A program made the position numbers and the translations under genes. A stretch of DNA of 44,230 bases, taken from positions 1-44,230 of the IMG/VR virus record IMGVR_UViG_3300029448_000093. The stretch is one strand, 5' to 3'. Positions 3,120 through 44,230 of this stretch are shown piece after piece; positions within the stretch are counted from its first letter, which is position 1, and each line of letters begins with the position of its first letter. Below the pieces are notes generated by a model. That model did not search any database. It was not told the origin of the DNA and saw only the letters and a list, made by a program, of their open reading frames with translations. The stretch is from a virus.

Positions 3120-3482
3120 ATGGCACACTACACATACAATGACGGCTACATCGTAGCCATACTCGACATGGACCTGACGCTTGACGTTTCGATTGATGTT
3201 GAAGAAACCTATGGTCACTATGAGAGGACCGACACACGCATCGACGGTATAGATGCCGCCAACATCAGACCCTGTGAGGTAGCTATCAAGAGAGATTGTG
3301 ATGACAAGCACCCACCCACCGTGTGGTGTATGGAGGATGATCTTAGCCAGCCCCGGCTTGGGTCTCGGCTTGGGTGGAAGCACTGGTTCAACTACTTCAA
3401 TGACATGGACATGTTCAAACTTTGGGAAGGTATCGAGAATGAAAACGAATTCACACAAGAGATCGAAGACGCGACGAGTTAA
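3120..3482 (+). CDS. Hypothetical early protein
   Basis: 120 residues from ATG 3120 with AAGGAGA upstream. Acidic, with many Asp, Tyr and aromatic residues (HYTYNDGYIVAILDMDLTLD; WKHWFNYFNDMDMF). Possibly a small alpha/beta protein. Its last 44 bases overlap the next gene in another frame. No recognised domain. Confidence 0.7.
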   Translation: MAHYTYNDGYIVAILDMDLTLDVSIDVEETYGHYERTDTRIDGIDAANIRPCEVAIKRDCDDKHPPTVWCMEDDLSQPRLGSRLGWKHWFNYFNDMDMFKLWEGIENENEFTQEIEDATS

Positions 3483-3690
3483 GAAGGCTGTGCATACCGT
3501 GGTGATTCAGCAAGGGCTGTGCCATGTGACTGCCGACACTCGACGCAATGCAGAGGAGCAGGCTAGGACACTGGAGCATCACCTCAAGATGCGTGTGCCC
3601 GGTGTCAACAATCAGACAGAGGTAGAGCCGGGAGTGTATGCTCTCGGTGTGGCTGCCAAGAAACAACTGGGAGTACGAGTACATGAGTGA
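3439..3690 (+). CDS. Small basic early protein
   Basis: 83 residues from ATG 3439, chosen because GGGAAGG lies at 3424-3430; the longer frame from 3298 reads through the gene above. The N-terminus is strongly basic (MKTNSHKRSKTRRVKKAV). It is followed by an amphipathic domain (HVTADTRRNAEEQARTLEHHLKMRVPG) compatible with nucleic-acid binding. Function unknown. The stop overlaps the next start by eight bases. Confidence 0.6.
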   Translation: MKTNSHKRSKTRRVKKAVHTVVIQQGLCHVTADTRRNAEEQARTLEHHLKMRVPGVNNQTEVEPGVYALGVAAKKQLGVRVHE

Positions 3691-3976
3691 TGGAGTTGAC
3701 CCTGTCCGTAAGGCGGACTCACTATCTACCAGACGCAGCAAGATTGGGAAGACCAGACGCAAGGAGTTCGACTCCTTCTATGGTAAGCCCAAGGCTACAC
3801 GTGGTAGCAACGGGGCAGGTAAGGGTGACGCAACCCGGCCCACACATGCTCGTCGATACGAGCTAGGATACAAGATGCTTGACCCTAACCTCACTGATGA
3901 GGAGAGAGAGGAGATGCGCCGTGAGTGGAGAGAACTTGGAAGACCAACGACAGACGATTCAGGATCTGATCAATGA
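3683..3976 (+). CDS. Small conserved phage protein with GKGD-R motif
   Basis: 97 residues from ATG 3683. It contains SNGAGKGDATRPTHARRYELG at about residues 38-58. This resembles a short motif (GKGDxxRP...Y) recurrent in small hypothetical proteins of many tailed phages. The rest is basic and charged, with a C-terminal helix (NLTDEEREEMRREWREL). Function unknown even in relatives. It overlaps the acidic protein behind it by 56 bases. Confidence 0.7.
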   Translation: MSDGVDPVRKADSLSTRRSKIGKTRRKEFDSFYGKPKATRGSNGAGKGDATRPTHARRYELGYKMLDPNLTDEEREEMRREWRELGRPTTDDSGSDQ

Positions 3977-4223
3977 GATTCAGACAACCCGGATGGTAGA
4001 GGAGACAGCACGTGAGTGCGGTGAGACCAGCGAGCAGCTGGCTGATCGGTTCATGAACTGGCTCGATGACAATGACCACGAGTGTGATACACTTGCTGGT
4101 ATGCTGCACGCTTGGCGTGAGTTTATGTCCTTCCTCGATGACGAGGACAGCGATGACTGGGATGAGGATGATGGTCATCCTTCAGAGACTACTGAGTGGG
4201 GTGACTTCGACCCCCTTTGCTAG
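3921..4223 (+). CDS. Highly acidic early protein (possible DNA mimic)
   Basis: 100 residues from GTG 3921, which has GAGGAGA at 3908-3914; alternative starts are ATG 3897 and TTG 3879. About 31 Asp/Glu face 5 Arg and no Lys. The C-terminal third is nearly all acidic (FLDDEDSDDWDEDDGHPSE). Size, charge and early position recall DNA-mimic proteins such as T7 Ocr, which block restriction enzymes. There is no sequence match I can claim, so the role is inference. The predicted fold is helical. Confidence 0.7.
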   Translation: MSGENLEDQRQTIQDLINEIQTTRMVEETARECGETSEQLADRFMNWLDDNDHECDTLAGMLHAWREFMSFLDDEDSDDWDEDDGHPSETTEWGDFDPLC

Positions 4224-4232
4224 GAGATTGTG

Positions 4233-4790
4233 ATGAGAAACGTAAGCTACTTGATTCGTCTTGCCCGTCAAGGGTGGGATCATCGTGACTGGTACACACG
4301 AGCCGAGGGTTCGCTGATGGATCTGTCTGACTTCCTTGACATTGACTTCGACGAGCTGGTTGATGTGCTGTCTATCACATCGCCTCGTGTTTCTGTTGCC
4401 CGTAATGTACGTGTGACCATCGACTACTTCAAGACAGGCACGCTGTCCTCTGGTCTGATCAAGTCTACACATGCAGCCCTCAAGCATTACCGTAGAACCG
4501 GTGAGATTCGTGGGCCCAAGACATCTAAGTTTGCTGCCGCCCTCAAGGGTGACACGACAGCCATCGTGCTAGACACGTGGATGGCTAAGGCTTTGGGTAT
4601 CCCACAGTCTAGCTTCAGCAACAAGCGTGTCCGCTCTAGTGTGGAGCGCCGTATCAGGTACGGTGCTTACATCCTAGGCATCACACCAGCAGAGTTCCAA
4701 GCTGCTGTCTGGTCTGGTATTGTTATGAACGAGGGGCGATTGTCCGTCCCTTGTATTACTCAAGTTCTCAATGAGGAGATGACTCGATGA
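4233..4790 (+). CDS. Conserved phage hypothetical protein (GPKT...LD.WM type)
   Basis: 185 residues from ATG 4233, with TAGGAG at 4221-4226; a GTG at 4230 is too close to that site. Mostly helical. The middle has GEIRGPKTSKFAAALKGD then AIVLDTWMAKALG. I associate this pattern with a conserved but uncharacterised family in marine podoviruses and myoviruses (GPKTxxF...GD...LDxWM). The N-terminal half contains a helix-turn-helix-like stretch (SDFLDIDFDELVDVLSITSPRVSV). The protein may act in host takeover; the sequence does not say how. ATGA overlap with the next gene. Confidence 0.75.
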   Translation: MRNVSYLIRLARQGWDHRDWYTRAEGSLMDLSDFLDIDFDELVDVLSITSPRVSVARNVRVTIDYFKTGTLSSGLIKSTHAALKHYRRTGEIRGPKTSKFAAALKGDTTAIVLDTWMAKALGIPQSSFSNKRVRSSVERRIRYGAYILGITPAEFQAAVWSGIVMNEGRLSVPCITQVLNEEMTR

Positions 4791-5185
4791 TGATTGATAC
4801 TGATAACCGTGAACTGTTGAACACCATGATCTGTCCCGAAGACAACACCAACAACCTTACCCATATCAATGGTGTCAAGATCTACCCCCGACTCACTGTC
4901 GGAACGATCAACAACCTGTCATACTGGGATGCTGACCGTGGTCAGATGATGGTGAACGTGGCCGTTGGCATCCTGCCTAACTGGTCGAGCGGTGGTAACG
5001 TGTTCCAGAGACGCACTGTTGCGATCCCTACTCAGCGTGTGCTGAATGGTCGCAAGCCTGAGTGCATCAGGACGTGCCGGTATGGTCACTTCATGAACAT
5101 CCTCACCTCACATGTTGAGGCAGCGGGTGTTGACCTTGACAACCACCAAGTTGTGTTCGTTGGATTCACTCACGTCAGAGCCTAA
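4787..5185 (+). CDS. Hypothetical protein upstream of RNA polymerase
   Basis: 132 residues, starting in an ATGA overlap with GAGGAGA upstream. The sequence (GTINNLSYWDADRGQMMVNVAVGILPNWSSGGNVFQRRTVAIPTQRV) is rich in alternating hydrophobics, suggesting a beta-rich fold. No family recognised. It ends 13 bases before the polymerase start, so the two are co-transcribed. Confidence 0.7.
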   Translation: MMIDTDNRELLNTMICPEDNTNNLTHINGVKIYPRLTVGTINNLSYWDADRGQMMVNVAVGILPNWSSGGNVFQRRTVAIPTQRVLNGRKPECIRTCRYGHFMNILTSHVEAAGVDLDNHQVVFVGFTHVRA

Positions 5186-5198
5186 GTCTGGAGACTCA

Positions 5199-7670
5199 AT
5201 GGGATATTGGAACTCGCTGACCCCGCAGCAGCAAGCTGCGCTGTTTGTTGAAGAAGAAGATCTAGAGATGAAGTCTCTAGACGCAGGGATCTTAAGATAC
5301 AAGGAGAATACTAAAGCACAACCGATGTCCAAGCGGGCATCATGTCGTTCGCTTATTGGATTGGCAGCAGAGAATCTTACGTCCGCTATTGAGGTAGAGA
5401 CTTCCAAGGTCGTGGCTGGTAGAGGTATGCGGGGAGGGAATCAGTGGGGACACGTGTTCATCTACATGGATGCACGTGTCCTTGCTGCTGCCTCCATCAT
5501 GTCGATGATAGACTTGATGGCAGATGGTGGTGTCACCTCCCCTCAGCAGGCAGTCACTAAGATAGGCAGAGACATTGAGCAGGAGACACACTTCACCATT
5601 CTCAAACGTGAAGCGCCGAAGCTCAAGGCTGTGATGGAGAGACGCATCAAGCGGTGGGATAGTAGATCCCTGCGTGCTGCCCTCAAGAAGATCGATCAGG
5701 ATTGTACTGATCGGTGGGGTATCAAGCGCAAGCGTTTGATCGGTGCTAAGCTGTTGGATCTAGCTGTCACTGACAGTGGTATCTTCGGCACACGTGTTGT
5801 CACAGGGCGTGGCCCGCATGGCAAGCCCTTCTCCCGCAAGGAGATCTACCTGACTGATGATGCAATGGAAAGCATCAGCCGTATGGATGATCACCTTGAA
5901 CTCTTGTCACCACGGTACGAGCCTATGATTGTACCGCCTAACCGGTGGTCGAATGATGTCAACGGCGGGTACACTGTGCTCTCACGCTACCATAACATGG
6001 TCAAGTCAGGGCTCGGTGACACCTCTTCAGGTGACCCACGTGATCACGGCGACATACCATACCGTGCTATCAATGCGCTACAGGAGACACCATACACCAT
6101 CAACCCGGTGGTGTTGTCTACCATGCAGCATGTCTGGTTGCATGGTGGTGGTATGGGTGTGCCGCCTGCTGAGAATCTACCTATCCCACCCCGACCTGAT
6201 GTCGAGGATGACAGGGAGTGGCGGGTCAAGGCAGAGCAGGTGTACCGTGAGAACGCACGGCTTGTCGGCAGGAGGATACAGTTCCTCAAGACTATGGCGA
6301 CAGCTGTTAAGTATCGTCGCCGTGTCTTCTTCTTCCCTTGGCAGTACGACTTCAGGTCTAGGCTGTATCCTATCCCGGCATTCTTGCAGCCACAGGGACC
6401 GGACATGGCACGCGGCTTGCTTAACTTCGGTGACGGTAAGAAGCTAGGCAAGCGTGGTATGCGTTGGCTTATGATCAGGCTGTCTAACTGCTGGGGTGTT
6501 GACAAGGTATCATTCCAGAAGCGTGTCGAGTTCAGTACCAAGCTGATGCTCGACGCACCTGCTGACTTCGACCCCCTGTCTGAGGCAGGCAAGCGGCTCT
6601 GGTCTGATGCCGACGAACCATGGCAGGCACTAGCTACGGTAGCTGACATCATCGCAGCCCGTAACTATGAGGGTGGTGTAGAGAACTACATCAGCTACCT
6701 GCCTGTCAACGTAGACGGTAGCAACTCAGGTCTTCAGCACTTCTCTGCTATGCTTAGAGATGCAGAAGGCGCAGCTCTTGTAAACCTTACAGACCTACCC
6801 GAGCCCAGTGATCCGTATCAGAATGTGTCTGATGCTGTGGAATGTAAGGTTAATGAGGATTGTAGGACAATAGAATCGGGGGTAATAGAAGGCCCACAAA
6901 TCTTTGGAAGCATGTGGTCAGACAAGCCGGACGTAGGCACAACCCTGTTGTCTCTACCTCAGCAGTGGCTTGACTACCAGATCACACGCAAGGTTACCAA
7001 GCGAGGTACGATGACGTACCCGTATGGTGTGACAGAGCAGGGGCTCAGAGATAACCTCATCGAGGATGGTCATGTTGACTGGGCATCTAACCAGTTCGCT
7101 GCCTCTAGATATCTGGGCAAGAAGATATGGGAAGCTATCCGAGAGAACATCACAGGTGCTGCCGAGGCTATGGATTGGCTGCGCCACTGTGCCACTGTGG
7201 CTAACAAGCACGATGTTCTACTGCAATGGCGCACGCCTAGTGGTTTCTTAGTGCGTCACCCATACAGCCAGCTCAAGGATACGAGGGTCAGGTGTCTCAA
7301 TGGAGAGACCATCTTCAAGTCACCTCACCGTGAGGGTGGGGTGCGTGCATCCAAGCAGAGGACAGGGCTACCCCCTAACTTTGTACACTCTCTCGACGCT
7401 ACTCATCTGATGATGACTGTCGTTGCTGGTGTTGACGAGGGTGTTGACTCGTGGCTCATGATTCACGATTCATTCGGTACTCATGCGTGTGATGTCGATA
7501 CCCTCAGGGATGTGCTGCGCCAACAGTTTGTAAACCTGTACAGCGGCAACGTGTTAGAAGACTTTAGACAACAGGTGGAGACACAGACGGGAGAAGATCC
7601 CGGTGACCCACCAGCACAAGGGAACTTCGATCTCAATGAGGTTCTCCAATCGGAGTACATCTTTGCCTGA
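5199..7670 (+). CDS. Single-subunit DNA-directed RNA polymerase (T7 gp1-like)
   Basis: Transcribes the middle and late phage genes from phage promoters. 823 residues (T7: 883). ATG 5199 is chosen because TCTGGAG lies five bases upstream and MGYWNSLTPQQQAALFVEEE looks like a true N-terminus; the frame is open back to 5112. Motif A is VDGSNSGLQHFSAM with catalytic D506. Motif B is RKVTKRGTMTYPYG with K601 and Y609, the same 8-residue spacing as T7 K631/Y639. Motif C is IHDSFGT with D757. The C-terminus ends ...SEYIFA, matching the T7 FA foot. A candidate phage promoter is embedded at 6868-6890 and is read as rare-looking codons (GGG GTA ATA) in a region that is variable between polymerases. Very confident. 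Confidence 0.97.
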   Translation: MGYWNSLTPQQQAALFVEEEDLEMKSLDAGILRYKENTKAQPMSKRASCRSLIGLAAENLTSAIEVETSKVVAGRGMRGGNQWGHVFIYMDARVLAAASIMSMIDLMADGGVTSPQQAVTKIGRDIEQETHFTILKREAPKLKAVMERRIKRWDSRSLRAALKKIDQDCTDRWGIKRKRLIGAKLLDLAVTDSGIFGTRVVTGRGPHGKPFSRKEIYLTDDAMESISRMDDHLELLSPRYEPMIVPPNRWSNDVNGGYTVLSRYHNMVKSGLGDTSSGDPRDHGDIPYRAINALQETPYTINPVVLSTMQHVWLHGGGMGVPPAENLPIPPRPDVEDDREWRVKAEQVYRENARLVGRRIQFLKTMATAVKYRRRVFFFPWQYDFRSRLYPIPAFLQPQGPDMARGLLNFGDGKKLGKRGMRWLMIRLSNCWGVDKVSFQKRVEFSTKLMLDAPADFDPLSEAGKRLWSDADEPWQALATVADIIAARNYEGGVENYISYLPVNVDGSNSGLQHFSAMLRDAEGAALVNLTDLPEPSDPYQNVSDAVECKVNEDCRTIESGVIEGPQIFGSMWSDKPDVGTTLLSLPQQWLDYQITRKVTKRGTMTYPYGVTEQGLRDNLIEDGHVDWASNQFAASRYLGKKIWEAIRENITGAAEAMDWLRHCATVANKHDVLLQWRTPSGFLVRHPYSQLKDTRVRCLNGETIFKSPHREGGVRASKQRTGLPPNFVHSLDATHLMMTVVAGVDEGVDSWLMIHDSFGTHACDVDTLRDVLRQQFVNLYSGNVLEDFRQQVETQTGEDPGDPPAQGNFDLNEVLQSEYIFA
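6868..6890 (+). promoter_or_regulatory. Candidate phage RNA polymerase promoter, copy 2
   Basis: Core AATCGGGGGTAATAGAA, 20 of 23 positions identical to the site at 16258-16280. It lies inside the polymerase gene in the variable stretch between motifs A and B. It would transcribe the replication genes starting at 7663, much as T7 has promoters around the end of gene 1. The polymerase codons here (ATA GAA TCG GGG GTA ATA) look chosen for the DNA signal rather than the protein. Confidence 0.6.
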
Positions 7671-7947
7671 ACTACAACAAGTTTACGTGCGGTGGATAGA
7701 CAGCACAACCGAGTGCAACTCTGCATGGAACAACCGTGAAGAGGTGCTCAAAGAATGTAAGGCTTTAACGGAAAAGGATCTTCTCTGTAAGACGGCAGGC
7801 TTCCTGCTAATAGAGTCAGATGATCACATCGTAGTTACTATGAACTACCATGAGACAGAGGTAGGCCCTTACTTAATTATACCTAGATGCTGCATCCTTG
7901 AGATGCGTATCACCGAACCCGAAGAGGAAGAGGAGGAATGGGGATGA
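7663..7947 (+). CDS. Conserved small phage protein behind RNA polymerase
   Basis: About 94 residues from TTG 7663, which has GGAG seven bases upstream and overlaps the polymerase stop; ATG 7636 is the other option. Beta-rich: VYVRWIDSTTECNSAW ... LLCKTAGFLLIESDDHIVVTMNY ... YLIIPRCCILEMRI. This layout, VxWxDS then vGxLl.e.dd.i.v then IPrxcI, recurs in short hypothetical proteins of many phages with unknown role. An acidic tail follows (EPEEEEEEWG). The tail's coding sequence supplies the ribosome site for the next gene. Confidence 0.7.
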   Translation: MPELQQVYVRWIDSTTECNSAWNNREEVLKECKALTEKDLLCKTAGFLLIESDDHIVVTMNYHETEVGPYLIIPRCCILEMRITEPEEEEEEWG

Positions 7948-8423
7948 GAATTTATATCGCCGGTCCAATGGGTGCGTTTCCTGACGACGACTTCAACCGC
8001 AAGTCATTCGAGTTAGCTTGGAAGAAGATCACTGAGATGGGGCACATCGCAATCTCACCTCACTTCCTTGAGAGCACCATCGACATTGAGTCACGCACCA
8101 GAATGGGTATGGGTCAGGTGTATAAGTACGCCTTACCGATTGATATCTTTGCGCTGAGTAGTTGCGAGGCTGCCATTGCTCTACCCGGATGGCGCAAGTC
8201 AAGCGGCTCGTGCTTTGAAGAGCACGCTGCTAGGTTGATGGAGATCCATTGGGCTGAGATGGGGCAGTATGATTACCCCGCTCAGTTCGCAGCCGCTGGC
8301 CCGCCAAGGAACCACGTAGAAACCGAGGCGCTTAATCACTATGTTCATGAGATGGTTAAGTATCTAGAAACCACGATGAGACACCAAGGAGAAGAAGATG
8401 CCAAGAATTCTAGTGATACCTGA
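7944..8423 (+). CDS. DUF4406 / nucleoside 2-deoxyribosyltransferase-like protein
   Basis: 159 residues from ATG 7944 (AGGAGG at 7931-7936; ATG 7938 is too close). The N-terminus MRIYIAGPMGAFPDDDFNRKSF is the hallmark of the DUF4406 family. That family is related to nucleoside 2-deoxyribosyltransferases and binds nucleotides with a Rossmann-like fold. A middle segment (CEAAIALPGWRKSSGSCFEEHAA) matches the family's D-x-x-x-x-L.gW..S.Ga..E region. In phages such genes may remodel nucleotide pools or NAD-type signals, but no activity can be assigned from sequence. It overlaps the phosphoesterase by 26 bases, suggesting joint action. Confidence 0.8.
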   Translation: MRIYIAGPMGAFPDDDFNRKSFELAWKKITEMGHIAISPHFLESTIDIESRTRMGMGQVYKYALPIDIFALSSCEAAIALPGWRKSSGSCFEEHAARLMEIHWAEMGQYDYPAQFAAAGPPRNHVETEALNHYVHEMVKYLETTMRHQGEEDAKNSSDT

Positions 8424-9144
8424 CCTTCATGAGCCTGTTGCTCACCCCGGTAGTATGGACTTTATTGATTGGGTTGCCCAAGAGAATCAGCCTGATAGCG
8501 TTGTGTTCATCGGAGATATCGTGGATCACCACGGCATCTCGACATGGACTAAGCACGCCTCCGCACCCGGCCCTAAGGATGAGTACGAGCTTGCTCTCGA
8601 AGGGGTGCAGCGCTGGTACAATGCTTACCCTGATGCGGTGGTCACCATCGGCAACCATGATGCACGGCCTATGCGTATGGCTGAGTCAGCTGGTGTGCCG
8701 GGGTCATACCTTAAGGACTATGCCAGTGTGTGGCAGACACCCCGATGGTCATGGGTTGACGAGGTCATCATCGGTACAGGCATCAACGCCGTGTACTTTA
8801 CTCACGGCACAGGTAGGTCGGGGCTACAGCCCGCTGCTAACCTAGCCCGAGAGATGAGTATGTCCTCAGTCATGGGGCACATCCACTCAGCTGGCGGTGT
8901 CCGCTGGTTTGCTAACCCAACCAAGCGTTGGTTTGGTATGGACACTGGCTGCCTAGTAGATGACAGGCTGTATGCTTTCTCATACGGTAAGGCAAACAAG
9001 AAGAAGAGTGTACTGGGCTGCGGGTTCATCGACACCGAGAACCCTGCCGACACCCGCTTCATTGCTATGCCTAGTGGTAAGGGCGAGAGGTTCGGGAGAG
9101 ACAAGTATCCTATCCACCCACTACTGAAGGGACGCGCACTATGA
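8398..9144 (+). CDS. Calcineurin-type metallophosphoesterase
   Basis: 248 residues, GAAGGAGAAG-like site upstream (AAGGAGAAGAAG). All metal-binding motifs are present: D9-x-H11 (PDLHEP), G39-D40 with DHH at 43-45, G85-N86-H87-D88, H136 (FTHG) and G160-H161-I-H163. This is a complete two-metal phosphoesterase. Substrate is unknown; phage members include phosphatases and phosphodiesterases acting on nucleotides or RNA/DNA ends. Its pairing with the DUF4406 gene suggests nucleotide or signal metabolism. The next gene starts in the overlapping stop region (9141). Confidence 0.85.
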   Translation: MPRILVIPDLHEPVAHPGSMDFIDWVAQENQPDSVVFIGDIVDHHGISTWTKHASAPGPKDEYELALEGVQRWYNAYPDAVVTIGNHDARPMRMAESAGVPGSYLKDYASVWQTPRWSWVDEVIIGTGINAVYFTHGTGRSGLQPAANLAREMSMSSVMGHIHSAGGVRWFANPTKRWFGMDTGCLVDDRLYAFSYGKANKKKSVLGCGFIDTENPADTRFIAMPSGKGERFGRDKYPIHPLLKGRAL

Positions 9145-9611
9145 TATCGTCTTTCCTCCTATCCCTTGCACTTGGGTCATGCCCAGCCTGCGATGGTGAT
9201 CTAGATACCAACGAAGTAATTGATGGCTTAGATGTCGCTGTTATGTTGAGCAGGTTTGGTACTACTAACAACGCTGCCGACATCAACGATGACGGTATTG
9301 TTGACGGCGCTGACTTTGCAATACAGCTATCGAACTGGGGCAACTGCTCTTGCATGTGTGTTGATTGGATTGACTGCACTATCCTAGAGGATGACCCGAG
9401 CTGCGGGACATTCACTGACGCAGTAATGCGGCGGTGTCCTGATATCAATGACAACCGAGAGGTTGACGGCACTGATCTAGTTATACTCATGCAGTGGTGG
9501 GGCTACGGCCCGATCACAGATCAATCTGAGTCTTGTGATCTGAATGATGACGGCACTGTTGATGGCCGTGACTTGGTCCTTTTACTTTGGAACTACGGGA
9601 GAACATATTGA
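9141..9611 (+). CDS. Secreted Cys-rich protein with two dockerin type I-like modules
   Basis: 156 residues. Residues 1-14 are hydrophobic (MISSFLLSLALGSC), a probable short signal sequence; C14 gives a weak lipobox (LGSC). Four F-hand calcium loops of the form DxNxDGxxDxxD lie at D20-D31 (degenerate), D47-D58, D101-D112 and D133-D144, each followed by a hydrophobic helix ending in RFG, NWG, WWG or NYG. They form two pairs, the usual unit of a type I dockerin, joined by a Cys-rich linker (C69, 71, 73, 79, 88, 99). Dockerins bind cohesins in cellulosomes. The DGxVDGxDL...NWG style is abundant in Planctomycetota extracellular proteins. Finding it in a phage replication operon is unusual; it may target the host cell surface. 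Overlaps neighbours at both ends. Confidence 0.85.
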   Translation: MISSFLLSLALGSCPACDGDLDTNEVIDGLDVAVMLSRFGTTNNAADINDDGIVDGADFAIQLSNWGNCSCMCVDWIDCTILEDDPSCGTFTDAVMRRCPDINDNREVDGTDLVILMQWWGYGPITDQSESCDLNDDGTVDGRDLVLLLWNYGRTY

Positions 9612-16721: not shown

Positions 16722-17019
16722 AGCGACTGTTTCAAAATCGCTGGTCGAACAGCTAGAGAAATGGGCCGACTTCATGATTAAATCGTATGAGTTCAGTCCC
16801 ACCTTTACTGGCGAGGACGCGCTCAAGACAGCTGCAACGGCTCATGGTATAAGAAAGACCGTGGCGCACCTTCGAGCGGTTCACAACTCACAACAGAACA
16901 CAAAGGAAAGCTCACATGGCGGAGATCAAGAACGAGGCGGGGGAGATCGTTGGGGGTCTGCCGGAACCCGACCAACAGGAAGGTATTATCCGAGCCCAAA
17001 ACGCTCGCCGTCTAGCTAA
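16687..17019 (+). CDS. Small protein upstream of the portal module
   Basis: 110 residues from ATG 16687 with CGGAG at 16675-16679, overlapping the previous gene by 35 bases. Residues 1-70 are helical (LLPLIEATVSKSLVEQLEKWADFMIKSYE ... TAATAHGIRKTVAHLRAV). The last 35 are a Gly/Ser/Arg-rich reading of the next gene's DNA and are probably not conserved. Position matches the T7 gp6.7/gp7 region, whose products are minor virion or ejection proteins. No family recognised. Confidence 0.65.
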   Translation: MASSENLLPLIEATVSKSLVEQLEKWADFMIKSYEFSPTFTGEDALKTAATAHGIRKTVAHLRAVHNSQQNTKESSHGGDQERGGGDRWGSAGTRPTGRYYPSPKRSPSS

Positions 17020-17461
17020 CCGCAGACGAGCGGCAGCTATGGCTATGGATATCAACCGAGTGTCAGGCTCAGACCTAGACAGATACGGTGACCCAAGGAT
17101 GCCCGCCCTCAGCGGTGACATGAACAGCGATGGTGTGGTTGACCAGACCGACGTGGACTATGTCACCGGCTCATGGGGTGGTAGCGGGGCGGCTGACCTT
17201 AACGGCGATGGTGTCGTTGACGGTCAGGATCTTGCTGCTATTCTCGGCAACGTAGGGCAAACCCAGCAGGGTCTTGGCGGTGTCTTCGAGACGCTACAGG
17301 ACGTGCCTGACAGGGTTGTCCCCGGCAGTAGCGGCATCTCAATGGACGATGCCATGGCTTTCCTACAAGCATTTAACTTTGACCCTCAGTCACACGTCCT
17401 CGGGACGAACAGCTTCCTCTCTTCATGGGGAAGTTTCAACATGGGACTGAACAACCCTTAA
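16916..17461 (+). CDS. Dockerin-like protein next to the portal gene
   Basis: 181 residues from ATG 16916 with AAGGAAAG upstream. Residues 1-60 are charged and helical (IIRAQNARRLANRRRAAAMAMDINR). A complete dockerin type I-like pair follows: loops D68-D79 (DMNSDGVVDQTD) and D94-D105 (DLNGDGVVDGQD), each with a hydrophobic helix (GSWGG; LGNVG). The C-terminal 65 residues (FETLQDVPDRVV ... FLSSWGSFNMGLNNP) are unknown. There is no signal peptide, so it acts in the cytoplasm or in the particle. It sits ten bases before the portal gene, where T7 encodes gp7.3-type virion proteins. It is probably a structural or ejected protein; a calcium-dependent partner is inferred, not shown. Confidence 0.8.
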   Translation: MAEIKNEAGEIVGGLPEPDQQEGIIRAQNARRLANRRRAAAMAMDINRVSGSDLDRYGDPRMPALSGDMNSDGVVDQTDVDYVTGSWGGSGAADLNGDGVVDGQDLAAILGNVGQTQQGLGGVFETLQDVPDRVVPGSSGISMDDAMAFLQAFNFDPQSHVLGTNSFLSSWGSFNMGLNNP

Positions 17462-17470
17462 GGAGCGACT

Positions 17471-19009
17471 ATGAGTTCGCAGAATGAACGCTCCCTGAGG
17501 GAGTGGTACGAAGACCTTGACCGTGACCGTGTCACCCTGCTGGATAGAAAGCGCGAGCACTCAATGCTGACGCTCCCATCTATCCTGCCTTGGGAAGGGC
17601 GCGTAACTAACACACCTCTTGATGTCCCTTACTCTAGCTCCTCTGCCGATGGTATCAACTCCCTTGCGAGTCGTATCATGGGCGTTGTGCTGCCTCTTAA
17701 CGGGCAGCCTATCTTTGAGATCGGCAACGTCACGCCCTTCAACCCTGAAGGAAATGATGACACAGAGCTTATGGATGTCATGGCTCGTTTCGGGCGCTAC
17801 ACCATGCGCCGCCTCGGGCCTACCAACCTACGATCCCAGCTTAATCTCCTGTATGCTCACCTGATTACTGTCGGTGACTGCTTGCTTGAGATGGACGAAG
17901 ACTTGAACGCACGTCTATACCGTGCTGATCAGTACGTTGTCCGACGTAAGCACGAGGGTGACTGGGTTGACATCATCATTAAAGAGATGGTGCTGCCTGA
18001 GTTCCACGAAGAGCTTAAGCCGTACATGTCTCGGGCAAAGTCTGGGACAGAGACACCCTCGTTTTCTAAAGAAGAAGACTGGGAAGCCCTGTACACCCAT
18101 GTCCACAAAGACCCCGCAACCGGTGAAGTCACCAAGCAGCAGTCTTTCCGAGATGGTCCTGTTGGCAAGCCTGAAAGCACCCCGGTTAGCCGGTGGATGC
18201 CCTGTCGTTGGAAGTCTATGATTGGTGAGGCTTATGGCACATCACTCGTCGAAGACAACTTCGGTGATATCCGATCTGTTGACGCGCTTTCAAAGGCGCT
18301 GCTCGACGGGACACTGCTCAACGCGGAGTATCGATGGGGCGTAAACCCTGCCGGTATCACCGAGCTACAGGATCTCCTTGACTCAGTCAACGGTGACTTT
18401 GTACCTACCTCACCCGGCGACGTTTTCCCACTACAGTTCCAGAACGCAGCGCAAGTCGCCGCAACACAGGATGCTGTTGTCTACAGGGAGAGCGTCCTTA
18501 GCCGTAAGTTCCTCAAGCGTGCTACGCGAGACGCTGAACGAGTCACCGCCCGCGAGGTAGTGATGGATGCTCAGGATCTCGAAGGCCAGCTCGGAGGTAT
18601 CCTGTCGATGGCAGGCCGTGAGGTACAAGATCCTCTTGTTCGTTGGACACTCTACATTATGGGTAAGCAGAATCTTATCCCACCAGAGATCAGCGAAGAA
18701 ATTGAAAACCAACAAGGGCTTGTCAAGCTGTCAATCAAGGCAGGTCTTGAAGTCCTCCAGCGCGAAGCTGAGCGAGAGAAGCTCGACGGCGCAATGGAAC
18801 GAATGCGTAACTTACCGCCTGATGCAATGCAGGCATTCAACTGGCCTGCAATCGCCCGTGACTGGTGGCAGTCAATGGGTCTGGAAACCTCTGGTCGTAT
18901 TAGAACCGACGAAGAGATCCAACAGATGCAGGCTCAACAAGCACAACAGCAAGCAGCTATGGCTGCTGCACAGAACGCTGCCTCTGGCGGCATGAACATG
19001 GAGACCTGA
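17471..19009 (+). CDS. Portal (head-tail connector) protein, T7 gp8-like
   Basis: 512 residues (T7 gp8: 536), AAGGAG upstream. N-terminal REWYEDLDRDRVTLLDRKREHSMLTLPSILP and DVPYSSSSADGINSLASRIMGVVLPLNGQPIFEI are characteristic of podovirus portals. Later conserved parts include WMPCRWKSMIGEAYGTSLVEDNFGDIRSVDALSKALLDG. It forms the 12-subunit ring through which DNA enters and leaves the head and on which the tail assembles. The C-terminus is Gln/Ala-rich (QMQAQQAQQQAAMAAAQNAA). Confidence 0.95.
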   Translation: MSSQNERSLREWYEDLDRDRVTLLDRKREHSMLTLPSILPWEGRVTNTPLDVPYSSSSADGINSLASRIMGVVLPLNGQPIFEIGNVTPFNPEGNDDTELMDVMARFGRYTMRRLGPTNLRSQLNLLYAHLITVGDCLLEMDEDLNARLYRADQYVVRRKHEGDWVDIIIKEMVLPEFHEELKPYMSRAKSGTETPSFSKEEDWEALYTHVHKDPATGEVTKQQSFRDGPVGKPESTPVSRWMPCRWKSMIGEAYGTSLVEDNFGDIRSVDALSKALLDGTLLNAEYRWGVNPAGITELQDLLDSVNGDFVPTSPGDVFPLQFQNAAQVAATQDAVVYRESVLSRKFLKRATRDAERVTAREVVMDAQDLEGQLGGILSMAGREVQDPLVRWTLYIMGKQNLIPPEISEEIENQQGLVKLSIKAGLEVLQREAEREKLDGAMERMRNLPPDAMQAFNWPAIARDWWQSMGLETSGRIRTDEEIQQMQAQQAQQQAAMAAAQNAASGGMNMET

Positions 19010-19010
19010 T

Positions 19011-19193
19011 ATGCCCGGATTTGCAGGACGCGGTGGTGGTGGTGATACAGCTAAAAGAAGCGCGGCATCACGCCAAGCATCGAAGAGTTATGGTAAGTCA
19101 AAGGGAAAATCTAAGTCTAAGTCTAAGGCCAAGACTAAGAAAGCGCCCTTGAAGAAGGAACTTAAGAAAAAGAAGATCAGCTATGGCAAGTAA
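19011..19193 (+). CDS. Very basic Lys/Gly/Ser-rich small protein
   Basis: 60 residues from ATG 19011 (GGAG at 19000-19003). FAGRGGGGDTAKRSAASRQ is followed by alternating Lys/Ser/Gly (SKGKSKSKSKAKTKKAP). More than a third of residues are Lys. It is probably disordered and nucleic-acid binding. It is the first of three unusual genes between portal and scaffold that share this GKSxSKx style; see also 19183 and 19739. Confidence 0.65.
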   Translation: MPGFAGRGGGGDTAKRSAASRQASKSYGKSKGKSKSKSKAKTKKAPLKKELKKKKISYGK

Positions 19194-19761
19194 AAAAGGA
19201 ACAGGACGCACCCGAGGAAAAGGGTCCGCTTCCAAAGGCCGCGCGGGAGCGTCTCGAAGCGGCGGCTCGTCGAATAAGGCTGCGGGGAACAAGGGCCCTC
19301 GACAAACGAACCCCTTGAATGTCGTACCACCAGCTGGTACGGGCATTAAAGATAACTTCTCTCAAAACACGCCGCCAAAACGGCCTACCGTAGCGCCTCC
19401 CGGCCCAGATATTGTGCCAACTCTTCACGAGCTTGCTGAATATCAAAGGGAATTGGACAGGACACGCCCTATTAGGGACTTGATCAAAGACATTATGGAT
19501 CAGTGGACAAAACCAATTAACCCTCAAGGCCCCGGTAGTGGCGATGGTACTGGCAAGCCCGGAAGCCAACCAGATCCCGCGCCCATTCCTCCCGGCATTG
19601 GTCCGGGGTACACCGGATGGTGGCACGGCCCTAACAATGATGGGTTTATTCCTAGAAAGCCCGGACAGTCTGTTGAAAGCATTAGAGACGAGCGCGACAG
19701 AGCCCGTGAGCTGAGGGACAAAGAAAGGCGGGATCTACGTGGCAAACCAAGCAGGCCGTAA
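19183..19761 (+). CDS. Basic, proline-rich protein A between portal and scaffold
   Basis: 192 residues from ATG 19183, overlapping the gene before by 11 bases. The basic N-terminus (GTGRTRGKGSASKGRAGASR) closely resembles that of the next gene. The middle is Pro/Gly-rich with one helix (LHELAEYQRELDRTRPIRDLIKDIMDQW). Then GPGYTGWWHGPNNDGFIPRKPG and a charged C-terminal helix (RDERDRARELRDKERRDLRG). No family recognised. The place between portal and scaffold suggests an assembly or virion role. Confidence 0.7.
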   Translation: MASKKGTGRTRGKGSASKGRAGASRSGGSSNKAAGNKGPRQTNPLNVVPPAGTGIKDNFSQNTPPKRPTVAPPGPDIVPTLHELAEYQRELDRTRPIRDLIKDIMDQWTKPINPQGPGSGDGTGKPGSQPDPAPIPPGIGPGYTGWWHGPNNDGFIPRKPGQSVESIRDERDRARELRDKERRDLRGKPSRP

Positions 19762-20179
19762 AGGCGGCGGAAGAACCGCCAAAGGTAAGACCTCTGCATC
19801 AAAAGGCAGAGGCGGCATGAGTGCCAAGGGTAAAACGGCATCACGCCGACCAGACAACAGAAGCGCTCAGGAGTTTTCTCCTGACTTTTACTTTGTTACA
19901 CCGCATGGGGATAATCAATTTATTCCTACCGCGCTTCCTCCCAACTGGAATAACCCTCCTAAGACACCGTTCCCTATTAAGATGCCCGCAATACCCGGAT
20001 CACCGATTCCAAGTATTCCAACGGTAGTGCCTATTCCTAATCCTAACTATGATCCAAAGAAACCTACGTCTATTCCTGCGGGGCCAAGACCACCATACAG
20101 ACCTAAACCGAACGCAATACCCCCCGGTTATTACGGTCCGGGTGGGGTATGGAACCCCCTTAGAAGACGTGGTAGATAA
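19739..20179 (+). CDS. Basic, proline-rich protein B between portal and scaffold
   Basis: 146 residues from GTG 19739, overlapping protein A by 23 bases; ATG 19818 is an alternative. The N-terminus (GRTAKGKTSASKGRGGMS) is paralogous to protein A. Then FYFVTPHGDNQFIPTALPP, and about 70 residues that are one third proline (PIPSIPTVVPIPNPNYDP ... PPYRPKPNAIPPGYYGPGG), ending RRRGR. Probably extended and disordered. May be packaged with DNA or bind a partner during assembly. Confidence 0.68.
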   Translation: MANQAGRKGGGRTAKGKTSASKGRGGMSAKGKTASRRPDNRSAQEFSPDFYFVTPHGDNQFIPTALPPNWNNPPKTPFPIKMPAIPGSPIPSIPTVVPIPNPNYDPKKPTSIPAGPRPPYRPKPNAIPPGYYGPGGVWNPLRRRGR

Positions 20180-22333: not shown

Positions 22334-22900
22334 ATGGATACTTACAACTACACGAATGGTGCTCCTCTCCTTGGGGACGAGCGACCAGCGAATCGCCGTA
22401 ACCTCCTCGCAAGTGGTACGTCTGTCGAAAAGATTAACCTCACAAGCGCTACTACCGATGTTACTGCTGGTACGGCTGGTCTCGGAGACCTTGGCGCGGT
22501 TTCTAAGGACGCACGCGGTGTCTACCGTGTGTCTTATCAGGCCACCACGTCTGGTGACGGCCTTGGTGCTTGGAACTACTCTGACTTCGTGATCTACGAA
22601 AACACGGCAGGTGTCTACCTGACCGCAGCTCAGGCTATCGACTCCTCCGAAGGTGGTAGTGCTACTAGTGATGCCGATGACACCGATCTTCGGGCATCAG
22701 TTGACACCACCGTCTTTGGTGCTGCAACCCTCAACGGCAGTGGTCCGGACAGTAAGGCAACGGTCTTTGTTGCTACTTCCACCAACGTGACTCACGCTGC
22801 TGCGTGGACCGCTGGGGTGACACTGAAGGCAGGCAACGTCTACATTCTTGACGCGCTCAGTGCTGCAAGCCGTACTTGGAAGATCGAACGTATCGGTTAA
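22334..22900 (+). CDS. Probable capsid-associated (decoration) protein
   Basis: 188 residues with a strong AAGGAGG site; 20 bases behind the capsid gene and before the terminators, so made from the same abundant mRNA. Rich in Thr, Ser, Ala and Gly with alternating strands (VEKINLTSATTDVTAGTAGL ... GVYRVSYQATTSG ... SDFVIYENTAGVYLTAAQ ... VTLKAGNVYILDALS). This suggests a beta-sandwich. Head decoration or fibre proteins often occupy this position. No family name can be given. Confidence 0.65.
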   Translation: MDTYNYTNGAPLLGDERPANRRNLLASGTSVEKINLTSATTDVTAGTAGLGDLGAVSKDARGVYRVSYQATTSGDGLGAWNYSDFVIYENTAGVYLTAAQAIDSSEGGSATSDADDTDLRASVDTTVFGAATLNGSGPDSKATVFVATSTNVTHAAAWTAGVTLKAGNVYILDALSAASRTWKIERIG

Positions 22901-39391: not shown

Positions 39392-40492
39392 ATGGCGCTT
39401 ACAGAAAAATACCTTGACGTTGAAAACAGTCTTGGATCTAACTCAGGAACAGAGGCTAACCCTTGGCAGTCTTGGCAGGATGCCTTGAGTAATCTTGCTA
39501 CAGGGCAGCGTCTCAATGTCAAAGCCCCGTCTACTCGGGCTACTATCTCTACCAACAACACTGTAACTGTTGCTAACGTAGGATCGTCATTAAACCCTAT
39601 TCACGTTCGTGGTTATAGTTCTTCTATTGGCGACGGCGGCATTGCAGAGTTTGCTACTCTCACCTTAAAGTTCACAGATAACTACTTGGTTGAAGGCATT
39701 GACATTGCTAACTCGGCAGCAACAACCCCCGCTTCTGGGGCTCAGTTTACTTGCACCGGTATGAACACTACGTTCTACAGGTGCAAGGCTAGTAAGACAG
39801 GGGCTAACGCTCAAGACATTCGTATGTTTGATTGTCAGAAAGGCGGGAACGTCGTGAACTGTCACTGCCTTTTGTCGGCAGGGGACAACGCTAACTCCGG
39901 CCTTGAGGGTTGTATTGATATCACCAACGGCGTTGCCTACGCTAACATTGTTCGCATTACGGACTTTGTTGGGTCGGGCAGCCGCACCGGGGGTATTAAA
40001 CTCAGCTCGTCTACCGACCACTCGGCAGCTGCTGTCCGCAACCTTATCTTTACCGACCGCAGCACCCAGCCCTCTTTTGGGGTAGCTGGTATTGTTTGCG
40101 AAGGGATGACAAGAGCGGACCAAGGCGGATACCACATTACAAACAACACCATCGATAACTTCATCCATGGTATCCAGATGTTTGGTGTGGGTCTAACCTC
40201 GTCACCCGGAACACCTGTAGTAACAAACAACCTGATTACAAGCTGTCCTACGGCTTGCTACGGGATGACTACCTCGGTGTCACCTCCTCAAGTAATCTTT
40301 GTGAACAACGCTGTTGACGGTGTTATTGCTGGTGTGGTTCCTATTGACCTCCAGAGAATTACCAAAGACCCTTACAACGACGCGGCCAATAAAGACTTCA
40401 CCCTTAACGCTGTTAGGGGCGGTGGAGCGGTCTGTCGATCAAGGGCTGCTTGTATTAACGGAACTTTAGATATTGGAGCGCTGGCTATATGA
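39392..40492 (+). CDS. Right-handed beta-helix protein A (tailspike-like)
   Basis: 366 residues, GAGAGGAAA upstream. Opens with YLDVENSLGSNSGTEANPWQSWQDALSNLATGQRLNVKA, the usual start of phage pectate-lyase-type beta-helix proteins (..G..GT...pw.t...al......v.vk.). The middle repeats short strands (NYLVEGIDIANSA, TTFYRCKAS, MFDCQKGGNVVNCHC, GYHITNNTIDNF, PVVTNNLITSC), each one turn of a beta-helix. The end, KDFTLNAVRGGGAVCR, is shared with many relatives. Likely a surface glycan-binding or depolymerising protein. Unusual place between TerS and TerL. Confidence 0.8.
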   Translation: MALTEKYLDVENSLGSNSGTEANPWQSWQDALSNLATGQRLNVKAPSTRATISTNNTVTVANVGSSLNPIHVRGYSSSIGDGGIAEFATLTLKFTDNYLVEGIDIANSAATTPASGAQFTCTGMNTTFYRCKASKTGANAQDIRMFDCQKGGNVVNCHCLLSAGDNANSGLEGCIDITNGVAYANIVRITDFVGSGSRTGGIKLSSSTDHSAAAVRNLIFTDRSTQPSFGVAGIVCEGMTRADQGGYHITNNTIDNFIHGIQMFGVGLTSSPGTPVVTNNLITSCPTACYGMTTSVSPPQVIFVNNAVDGVIAGVVPIDLQRITKDPYNDAANKDFTLNAVRGGGAVCRSRAACINGTLDIGALAI

Positions 40493-41706
40493 GCGGTATT
40501 GGAATTATTGATGAGTACCCGTGGACTGATGTTTACTTTGATGATGACCTTAGCAGCGGTAACAACGACGGGACTACGGAAGGCAACGCATGGCAGACTG
40601 TAGACGCGATGATTGCTGGCGCAAGGAATGGGCACAGAGTCAACATTAAAAAGACTTCTAGCTCTATCACCATCTCAGGCACAAAGGTTTTTCCTGCCGG
40701 TACAAACGGCGGACCAATCTGGTATCGTGGATACGAGACTACAACTGGCGACGGAGTTGATGCGGTCTTTTCTATCAACGACGGTGGTTTTGTTGACACG
40801 GCTCAGGGACCACAAATCTTTAGTGACCTGACCTTTAATGGTAACTCTAACTCAAACAAGTGTGTGTTTGTAGAAGGACATGTCGATACGCAGACAACCT
40901 TTTACGATTGCACCTTCACTAACAATGGTGCAGGGCCTTGTGTAGATGCTAGGGAGTGCGCGTTCATTGCGTGCTCGTTTACAAACACTGGCTCGTTCTC
41001 GTCTGCTAACTACAGCGCCTTTGTCGGCAGCGCGGTCTGTGTCGGGTGCTACTTCAAAGCATCTGGTATTGTCTGCGACCTGTCACTGTCAGATGACTCC
41101 GAGCACATCCTTTGGTTTAAGAACGTGATTGTGTCTGACTCCTCAGAGGCCCGTGCTGGTGTAGACCTTGCTCTGACATTAGCTGACGGATCGTATGCGG
41201 CAGTTCTTGAAAGCTCCGTCTTCGGCGCGGGGAACGCTATCTATATTTCCGATCAGAACTCTGCGGCTGAGGCTGCCTACTTGTTCAGTCGGAACGTAAT
41301 TGCAGACTGCGACACCGGCTTCAATCACGCAGGAACAGTCGGCACTGTCGAGCAGCAGGCTATTCTAAACAACGCCTTCGGAAGCATGAGCACCGGTAAC
41401 TACGGGTCTAACTTTGGTGACTGCGTCGATGTGTTTACAACAATCGCCTTGACTGGTACACCTTTCTCATCCAACACAACCCTAGCTCTTGATAACGAAA
41501 CTAACCAAGGCGCTCTCTGCCGTGACGCGGTAAAGATCGGCTGCCTTGGTGCAGGGGGAGAGTTTGAAGTTACAGCCGGAGACATGGGCGGCGTTCGTCA
41601 CGGCTCTTCCAATGGGATCAAACCTATCAGCCTCGAAGCCTATGCCAACCTCCCGCCTACGGAGATTGGCCGCCCTACCATTACACGTACCTCGGAGCTT
41701 ACCTGA
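40489..41706 (+). CDS. Right-handed beta-helix protein B, relative of A
   Basis: 405 residues; start overlaps the stop of A (ATGA). VYFDDDLSSGNNDGTTEGNAWQTVDAMIAGARNGHRVNIKKT mirrors the start of A, followed by PIWYRGYETTTGDG (A has PIHVRGYSSSIGDG). Turn-like repeats follow (TTFYDCTFTNNG, ECAFIACSFTNTG, CVGCYFKASG). Near the end TNQGALCRDAVKIGCLG. A diverged tandem duplicate of A. The pair may form a hetero-oligomeric or branched receptor-binding device. Confidence 0.78.
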   Translation: MSGIGIIDEYPWTDVYFDDDLSSGNNDGTTEGNAWQTVDAMIAGARNGHRVNIKKTSSSITISGTKVFPAGTNGGPIWYRGYETTTGDGVDAVFSINDGGFVDTAQGPQIFSDLTFNGNSNSNKCVFVEGHVDTQTTFYDCTFTNNGAGPCVDARECAFIACSFTNTGSFSSANYSAFVGSAVCVGCYFKASGIVCDLSLSDDSEHILWFKNVIVSDSSEARAGVDLALTLADGSYAAVLESSVFGAGNAIYISDQNSAAEAAYLFSRNVIADCDTGFNHAGTVGTVEQQAILNNAFGSMSTGNYGSNFGDCVDVFTTIALTGTPFSSNTTLALDNETNQGALCRDAVKIGCLGAGGEFEVTAGDMGGVRHGSSNGIKPISLEAYANLPPTEIGRPTITRTSELT

Positions 41707-44168: not shown

Positions 44169-44194
44169 GTTATCGGACCACGAGCGCCGATAAC
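44169..44194. repeat. Inverted repeat at the genome junction
   Basis: GTTATCGG (44169-44176), ten bases, then CCGATAAC (44187-44194), the exact reverse complement. The right arm is inside the terminal direct repeat, so it is also present at 5-12. One arm is the same word as the array at 43666-43930, seen here in both orientations. Confidence 0.75.
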
Positions 44195-44230
44195 TACAAT
44201 TTGAAAAAATATCGTGCCCACCGTTTGACT
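44183..44230. repeat. Right copy of 48-base terminal direct repeat
   Basis: Matches 1-48 with a single difference. See the left copy. The TTGACT hexamer of the possible host promoter is the last part of the repeat. Confidence 0.85.

Follow-up and report, generated by a model that had tools for sequence, protein, structure and literature searches.

The window, a single virus record of 44,230 bp, has a T7-like gene order: RNA polymerase, primase-helicase, DNA polymerase, exonuclease, portal, scaffold, and major capsid protein, followed by tail tubular proteins, three internal proteins, and terminase (portal, scaffold, and capsid were assigned by Pfam, and the remaining genes were read from order and sequence). 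The virus is a marine T7-like phage. On the + strand, an ORF at 16916–17461 encodes a protein of 181 aa, with a ribosome-binding-like sequence (AAGGAAAG) upstream of its ATG; 9 bases separate its stop (17461) from the ATG of the portal (head-tail connector) gene (17471–19009, + strand; PF12236, 1.2e-44; PHROG 449, 2.6e-105). The first-pass annotation had described a longer protein without a signal peptide beside the portal, and both features hold: the next gene is the portal, and no signal peptide-like stretch is visible by eye in the N-terminus (MAEIKNEAGEIVGG). The protein comprises an N-terminal phage-specific segment (residues 1–62; 16916–17101; GGLPEP..QEG.IR.QNARR), an inserted segment (residues about 63–120; 17102–17275), and a C-terminal phage-specific segment (residues 121–181; 17276–17458; GGVFETLQ..P.R.VP ... 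AFNF ... GLNNP). The inserted segment contains two calcium-loop sequences, D68–D79 (DMNSDGVVDQTD; 17117–17152) and D94–D105 (DLNGDGVVDGQD; 17195–17230), all on the + strand. The N-terminal segment has 10 K/R and 10 D/E and is not net basic, and a long helix is predicted by modeling at residues 18–47. Going by gene position, the 181-aa protein is probably a virion protein. Elsewhere in the window, the two ends (1–48 and 44183–44230) have a 48-bp direct repeat in common, with one mismatch, and two neighboring proteins of beta-helix-like appearance (366 and 405 aa; 39392–41706), encoded beside the terminase, are possible tail spikes.

Residues about 65–117 of the 181-aa protein are a genuine dockerin module. 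Pfam Dockerin_1 (PF00404) matches residues 67–109 at 23.2 bits, above its cut-off of 22.9 (26 bits when the module is taken with its frame neighbors), and the NCBIfam GC-type dockerin NF041540 scores 28.6, slightly below its cut-off of 29; the anchoring dockerin on an exported protein that typifies NF041540 is not seen here, the module being internal (67–109 of 181) to a protein with no visible signal peptide. A profile built from 37 bacterial dockerins only gives 63.4 bits (E = 5.5e-19), against 12.4 bits for the best of 5000 shuffled versions of the protein. When every six-frame ORF of the window (757 in total) is scored with this profile, only 16916–17461 and 9141–9608 match; these two genes together hold three dockerin modules. 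The complete loop pair reported in the first-pass annotation lies exactly at the coordinates given above, and both loops have the full Ca-ligand pattern (D/N at 1, 3, and 5; D at 12), suggesting that the module binds Ca2+. In an AlphaFold2 model, each loop is followed by a helix (77–85 and 103–110), and pLDDT is about 92–95 across residues 71–110 with an input alignment of 47 rows (a three-sequence input gave pLDDT 49). When this model was compared with the PDB using Foldseek, the top 12 matches were all dockerin entries, among them 2y3n_B (rmsd 1.0 Å, TM 0.88 over the target) at an E-value of only 0.026, with low-confidence modeling for most of the chain; phmmer searches of the PDB also rank solved dockerins first (2y3n_B, 3e-4). 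The predicted fold of the module is that of a dockerin.

Contigs L004 and L041 and the record that holds L005 are 99.8% identical in their overlaps and hence represent one sister virus, which has 93–95% DNA identity to the window and encodes both dockerin genes. A chimera confined to a single contig, a possibility raised in the first-pass annotation, is thereby ruled out. Further searches of IMG/VR for relatives of the 181-aa protein or the portal found only three contigs, two of them from one sister virus. Between the window and the sister virus, the dockerin region has 13 synonymous changes and one nonsynonymous change (T78S), giving dN 0.008, dS 0.43, and dN/dS 0.02, a constraint equal to that on the portal; so few nonsynonymous changes would be expected under neutrality with P = 8e-8. 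The dockerin module is under strong purifying selection.

The virus L008, whose portal is 71% identical to that of the window, encodes in the same slot a 121-aa protein that aligns with the window protein at both ends (VGGLPEP..QEG.IR.QNARR; GG.FET.Q..P.R.VP; FL.AFNF) and has no counterpart of residues about 63–120, that is, of the dockerin. Because this homologue occupies the same slot and keeps the flanks but not the module, we interpret the dockerin as a domain insertion into an older phage protein. Proteins in this slot are 73–94 aa in HTVC200P, LUZ100, and CRP-118, and longer in S-CBP2 and MedDCM-OCT-S39-C11; given that small proteins occupy it in other T7-like phages, insertion in the lineage of the window, between two segments already present there, is likelier than loss in L008. 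The interval between portal and scaffold (19011–20179) encodes small Lys-/Pro-rich proteins with no counterpart at that place in L008, and its part at 19358–19778 gives no alignment with the sister virus.

The position directly upstream of the portal in the late block is that of T7 gp7.3 and, likewise, of LUZ100 gp33. In T7, gp7.3 is located in the tail channel, anchored to the nozzle, and ejected, and particles need it for adsorption competence (PMC11784390). Neither the window protein nor its L008 homologue matches the gp7.3 families (PF11653/PHROG 1320), while LUZ100 gp33 matches PHROG 1320 at 5.7e-10. The basic, DNA-contacting N-terminal part of gp7.3 is likewise not seen in residues 1–62. 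The C-terminus MGLNNP (QLNIGD in L008) resembles the SGLNIP end of gp7.3-like proteins. Because it has in common with gp7.3 neither the sequence family nor the basic N-terminus, the window protein is not classed as gp7.3.

The second dockerin gene (9141–9611, + strand) lies in the early/middle block, flanked by a metallophosphoesterase-like gene and an SSB-like gene, and encodes two dockerin modules, identified by profile matches, after a hydrophobic N-terminus (MISSFLLSLALGSC). This agrees with the first-pass annotation, in which a second, independent dockerin gene with an exported-looking product was proposed; the modules are in tandem, and dN/dS relative to the sister virus is about 0.12. 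An origin of the virion module by duplication of this gene was considered less likely, given that bacterial modules are closer to it (up to 64% identity among the matches listed) than are the 9141 modules (42–47%). In an unrelated phage, a 67-aa exported-looking protein that is nearly all dockerin is encoded directly before the large terminase gene (L051:769–972), in a style similar to that of the 9141 gene.

A scan of bacterial genomes with the virion module returned almost exclusively Planctomycetota, mostly Phycisphaerae, among the best loci listed (at least 79); the top identity among the matches listed was 64%, to a Phycisphaerales MAG. By sequence similarity, the nearest relatives of the module are Planctomycetota, mainly Phycisphaerae. 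In a nucleotide search of the structural block (20 kb) against 397 Phycisphaerae genomes there were 28 weak matches, about half of which, including the best three, fell in the ~135-bp dockerin, an enrichment that is partly due to the many dockerin copies in Phycisphaerae genomes. The same comparison yielded no convincing protospacer, and no tRNA was found that could serve as a host link. The host is a putative one, assigned through the relatives of the dockerin module.

In the class to which the best match belongs, dockerins are present in 80 of the 101 genomes, and many of these genomes encode more than 20 modules, while canonical cohesins above the cut-off are present in 18 of the 101 and in none of six genomes tested from among those nearest to the host. 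The likely host class is dockerin-rich and cohesin-poor, and because canonical cohesins are this rare there, the dockerin may be bound by something other than a classical cohesin. A surface dockerin/cohesin complex (the “planctosome”) has been proposed for freshwater Phycisphaerae (PMC6461901). Within the window and 19 other viral records, Cohesin (PF00963) has no match even at E ≤ 10, and profile-profile comparison of the proteins at 22334, 23034, 24328, and 35203 with a Phycisphaerae cohesin profile gave nothing, although that profile was built from only six sequences and a weak resemblance could escape it. Among the proteins compared, then, no phage-encoded cohesin was found that could form a cellulosome-type pair with the dockerin. 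These results give no support to the cohesin-type joint suggested in the first-pass annotation, insofar as it would involve a phage-encoded cohesin shared by the two dockerin proteins, or to the beta-sandwich proteins at 22334 and 23034 as its partners.

Dockerins in virion proteins are a recurrent design among unrelated phages, as judged from a scan of IMG/VR in which 36 dockerin loci were found, mostly in exported proteins. A T7-like tail nozzle of 1767 aa (L046) combines PF25675 (5e-53) and a dockerin (31 bits) in one protein; L042 and its relative L006 have a dockerin in the protein encoded directly after two baseplate-wedge genes; and L048 has one in a 2200-aa tape-measure-type protein. 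An EF-hand/dockerin pair is present in a protein encoded between portal and minor head protein (L024), and another, below the dockerin cut-off, near the C-terminus of a portal (L033); large proteins of L040, L044, and L049 also contain a dockerin. No report of virion dockerins was found in the open-access literature, in which a Vibrio phage gene with dockerin similarity is mentioned in passing (PMC3558961). GenBank phages gave no significant dockerin match, although low-complexity filtering may hide some. The L046 nozzle (3267–8570) is roughly double the normal size, and the dockerin lies in an insertion together with FG-GAP repeats. One family of exported virus proteins of about 250 aa (L019, L022, L025, L028–L031, L034–L036, L039, L047, and L050) combines a dockerin at the C-terminus with an N-terminal domain in which profile comparison shows a weak cohesin-like motif (E = 0.0065). 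An array of small proteins (L045:3094–8608) has repeated N-terminal starts of the MNFKEYL/MKTPFQNY type, which may be the capsid-targeting sequences of internal head proteins of the T4-like kind, and one member of this array ends in half a dockerin.

We tentatively favor, as a possibility somewhat short of probable, a planctomycete-type dockerin that binds a host dockerin-retention receptor from within a tail- or portal-vertex protein, with the product of 9141–9611 occupying the same receptor. On this view, a small protein encoded next to the portal of a marine T7-like phage would have received a Phycisphaerae-like dockerin by insertion; the 181-aa protein, in the slot of T7 gp7.3, would probably be a late tail- or portal-vertex component of the virion. 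The calcium-loaded dockerin would most likely grip a surface receptor that holds the many dockerin-tagged exoproteins of the host, and this would supply the particle with an accessory link to the cell envelope, either during attachment or as ejection begins. The exported tandem dockerin could plausibly act as a decoy, by analogy with known receptor blockers, and thereby limit superinfection or the trapping of progeny on debris. The planctomycete affinity of the module, the dockerin richness of the class, the “planctosome” proposal, and the dockerins in nozzle, baseplate-region, and tape-measure proteins of other phages (with the weaker one in the L033 portal), which point to a role in virions, all favor a host receptor. 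On the other hand, the gp7.3 slot corresponds to the inside of the T7 tail channel (PMC11784390), which would conceal an adhesion domain up to the moment of ejection; the protein has no gp7.3-family sequence match; a role as surface adhesins is difficult to reconcile with the dockerins in portals and tape measures of other phages; canonical cohesins are scarce in the class; and the host itself is assigned via the relatives of the module. A broader proposition, which we regard as doubtful, is that Planctomycetota phages repeatedly build dockerins into nozzle, baseplate-region, tape-measure, and portal-adjacent proteins as a calcium plug into the host exoprotein receptor, some adding a secreted, receptor-blocking dockerin.

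The EF-hand/dockerin pairs at or beside portals (L033 and L024) and the dockerin of the L048 tape measure would also suit a calcium clamp inside the particle, in which the module binds a phage protein or itself and stabilizes or times assembly of the portal-tail junction with no host partner. The adjoining portal gene and the rarity of classical cohesin in the host class are consistent with this, but L008 manages without the module, the phage proteins compared include no cohesin-like partner, and the module is related most closely to surface modules of the host, not to other phage proteins; we consider such a clamp rather unlikely. If the protein were instead a gp7.3-like channel protein that leaves the particle first, its dockerin could then fasten the conduit for ejection to a host envelope protein that binds dockerins. 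The slot, the C-terminal motif, and the location, ejection, and role in adsorption competence of T7 gp7.3 (PMC11784390) agree with this, yet it appears unlikely given that there is no match to the gp7.3 family, that the N-terminal segment is not basic as in gp7.3, and that the other small Lys-rich proteins of the window (19011–20179) could take the gp7.3 role. Membership in the virion is deduced from position, so that the gene might also encode a late non-structural factor, either a chaperone or a surface-directed protein acting on the host dockerin system, that stands before the portal by chance; this is improbable for a protein with no signal peptide whose gene is kept with the portal block in three viruses. 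A chance motif, a chimera, a pseudogene, or a degenerate passenger has in its favor a Pfam score barely above the cut-off and nothing else, and was rejected as exceedingly improbable in view of the match to the bacterial dockerin profile, the predicted dockerin fold, the low dN/dS, and the retention of the module in the sister virus.

What is new is a dockerin as a domain insertion in a portal-adjacent phage protein, as revealed by the dockerin-less L008 homologue; one odd protein thereby becomes a case of a domain insertion that recurs, under selection, in the virion genes of phages, with a function that we infer. Planctomycetota, especially Phycisphaerae, have dozens of dockerins per genome, mostly without a recognizable cohesin, and a phage module under strong purifying selection may offer a handle on the host receptor that holds dockerin proteins. 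If virion dockerins mediate attachment, they would add a new chemistry to the ways in which tailed phages attach and would hint at the hosts of planctomycete viruses, of which, to our knowledge, almost none are in culture.

With the Type I dockerins of Phycisphaerae (PF00404; NF041540), the phage module has in common the duplicated 12-residue Ca-loop plus helix, the linker style (WGGSGAADLNGDG), identity of up to 64% among the matches listed, and a predicted fold like those of the solved 2y3n and 6kg9. It differs from those of Planctomycetota in being internal to a phage protein that lacks a signal peptide, and canonical cohesin was not found in the phage or the nearest host genomes examined. 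The “planctosome” involves the same host class and the same module and is a candidate partner system, but it is a host structure, itself hypothetical, with no phage in it (PMC6461901). Like T7 gp7.3 (PHROG 1320/PF11653), the window protein is small, has a similar C-terminal GLN motif, and is encoded immediately before the portal; it differs in giving no match to that family, in its N-terminus, which is neutral instead of basic, and in the dockerin inserted in it. Llp of phage T5 is a phage-encoded receptor-blocking lipoprotein; it provides a model for the 9141–9611 product as a blocker of the virion's receptor, by analogy only, as the two have no homology. Ig-like domains are accessory adhesion domains in virion proteins, and the dockerins resemble them as mobile domains that are inserted in structural proteins of various kinds and missing from closely related ones; in place of the Ig fold, the domain here would be an EF-hand-type plug of the host's surface-retention system.
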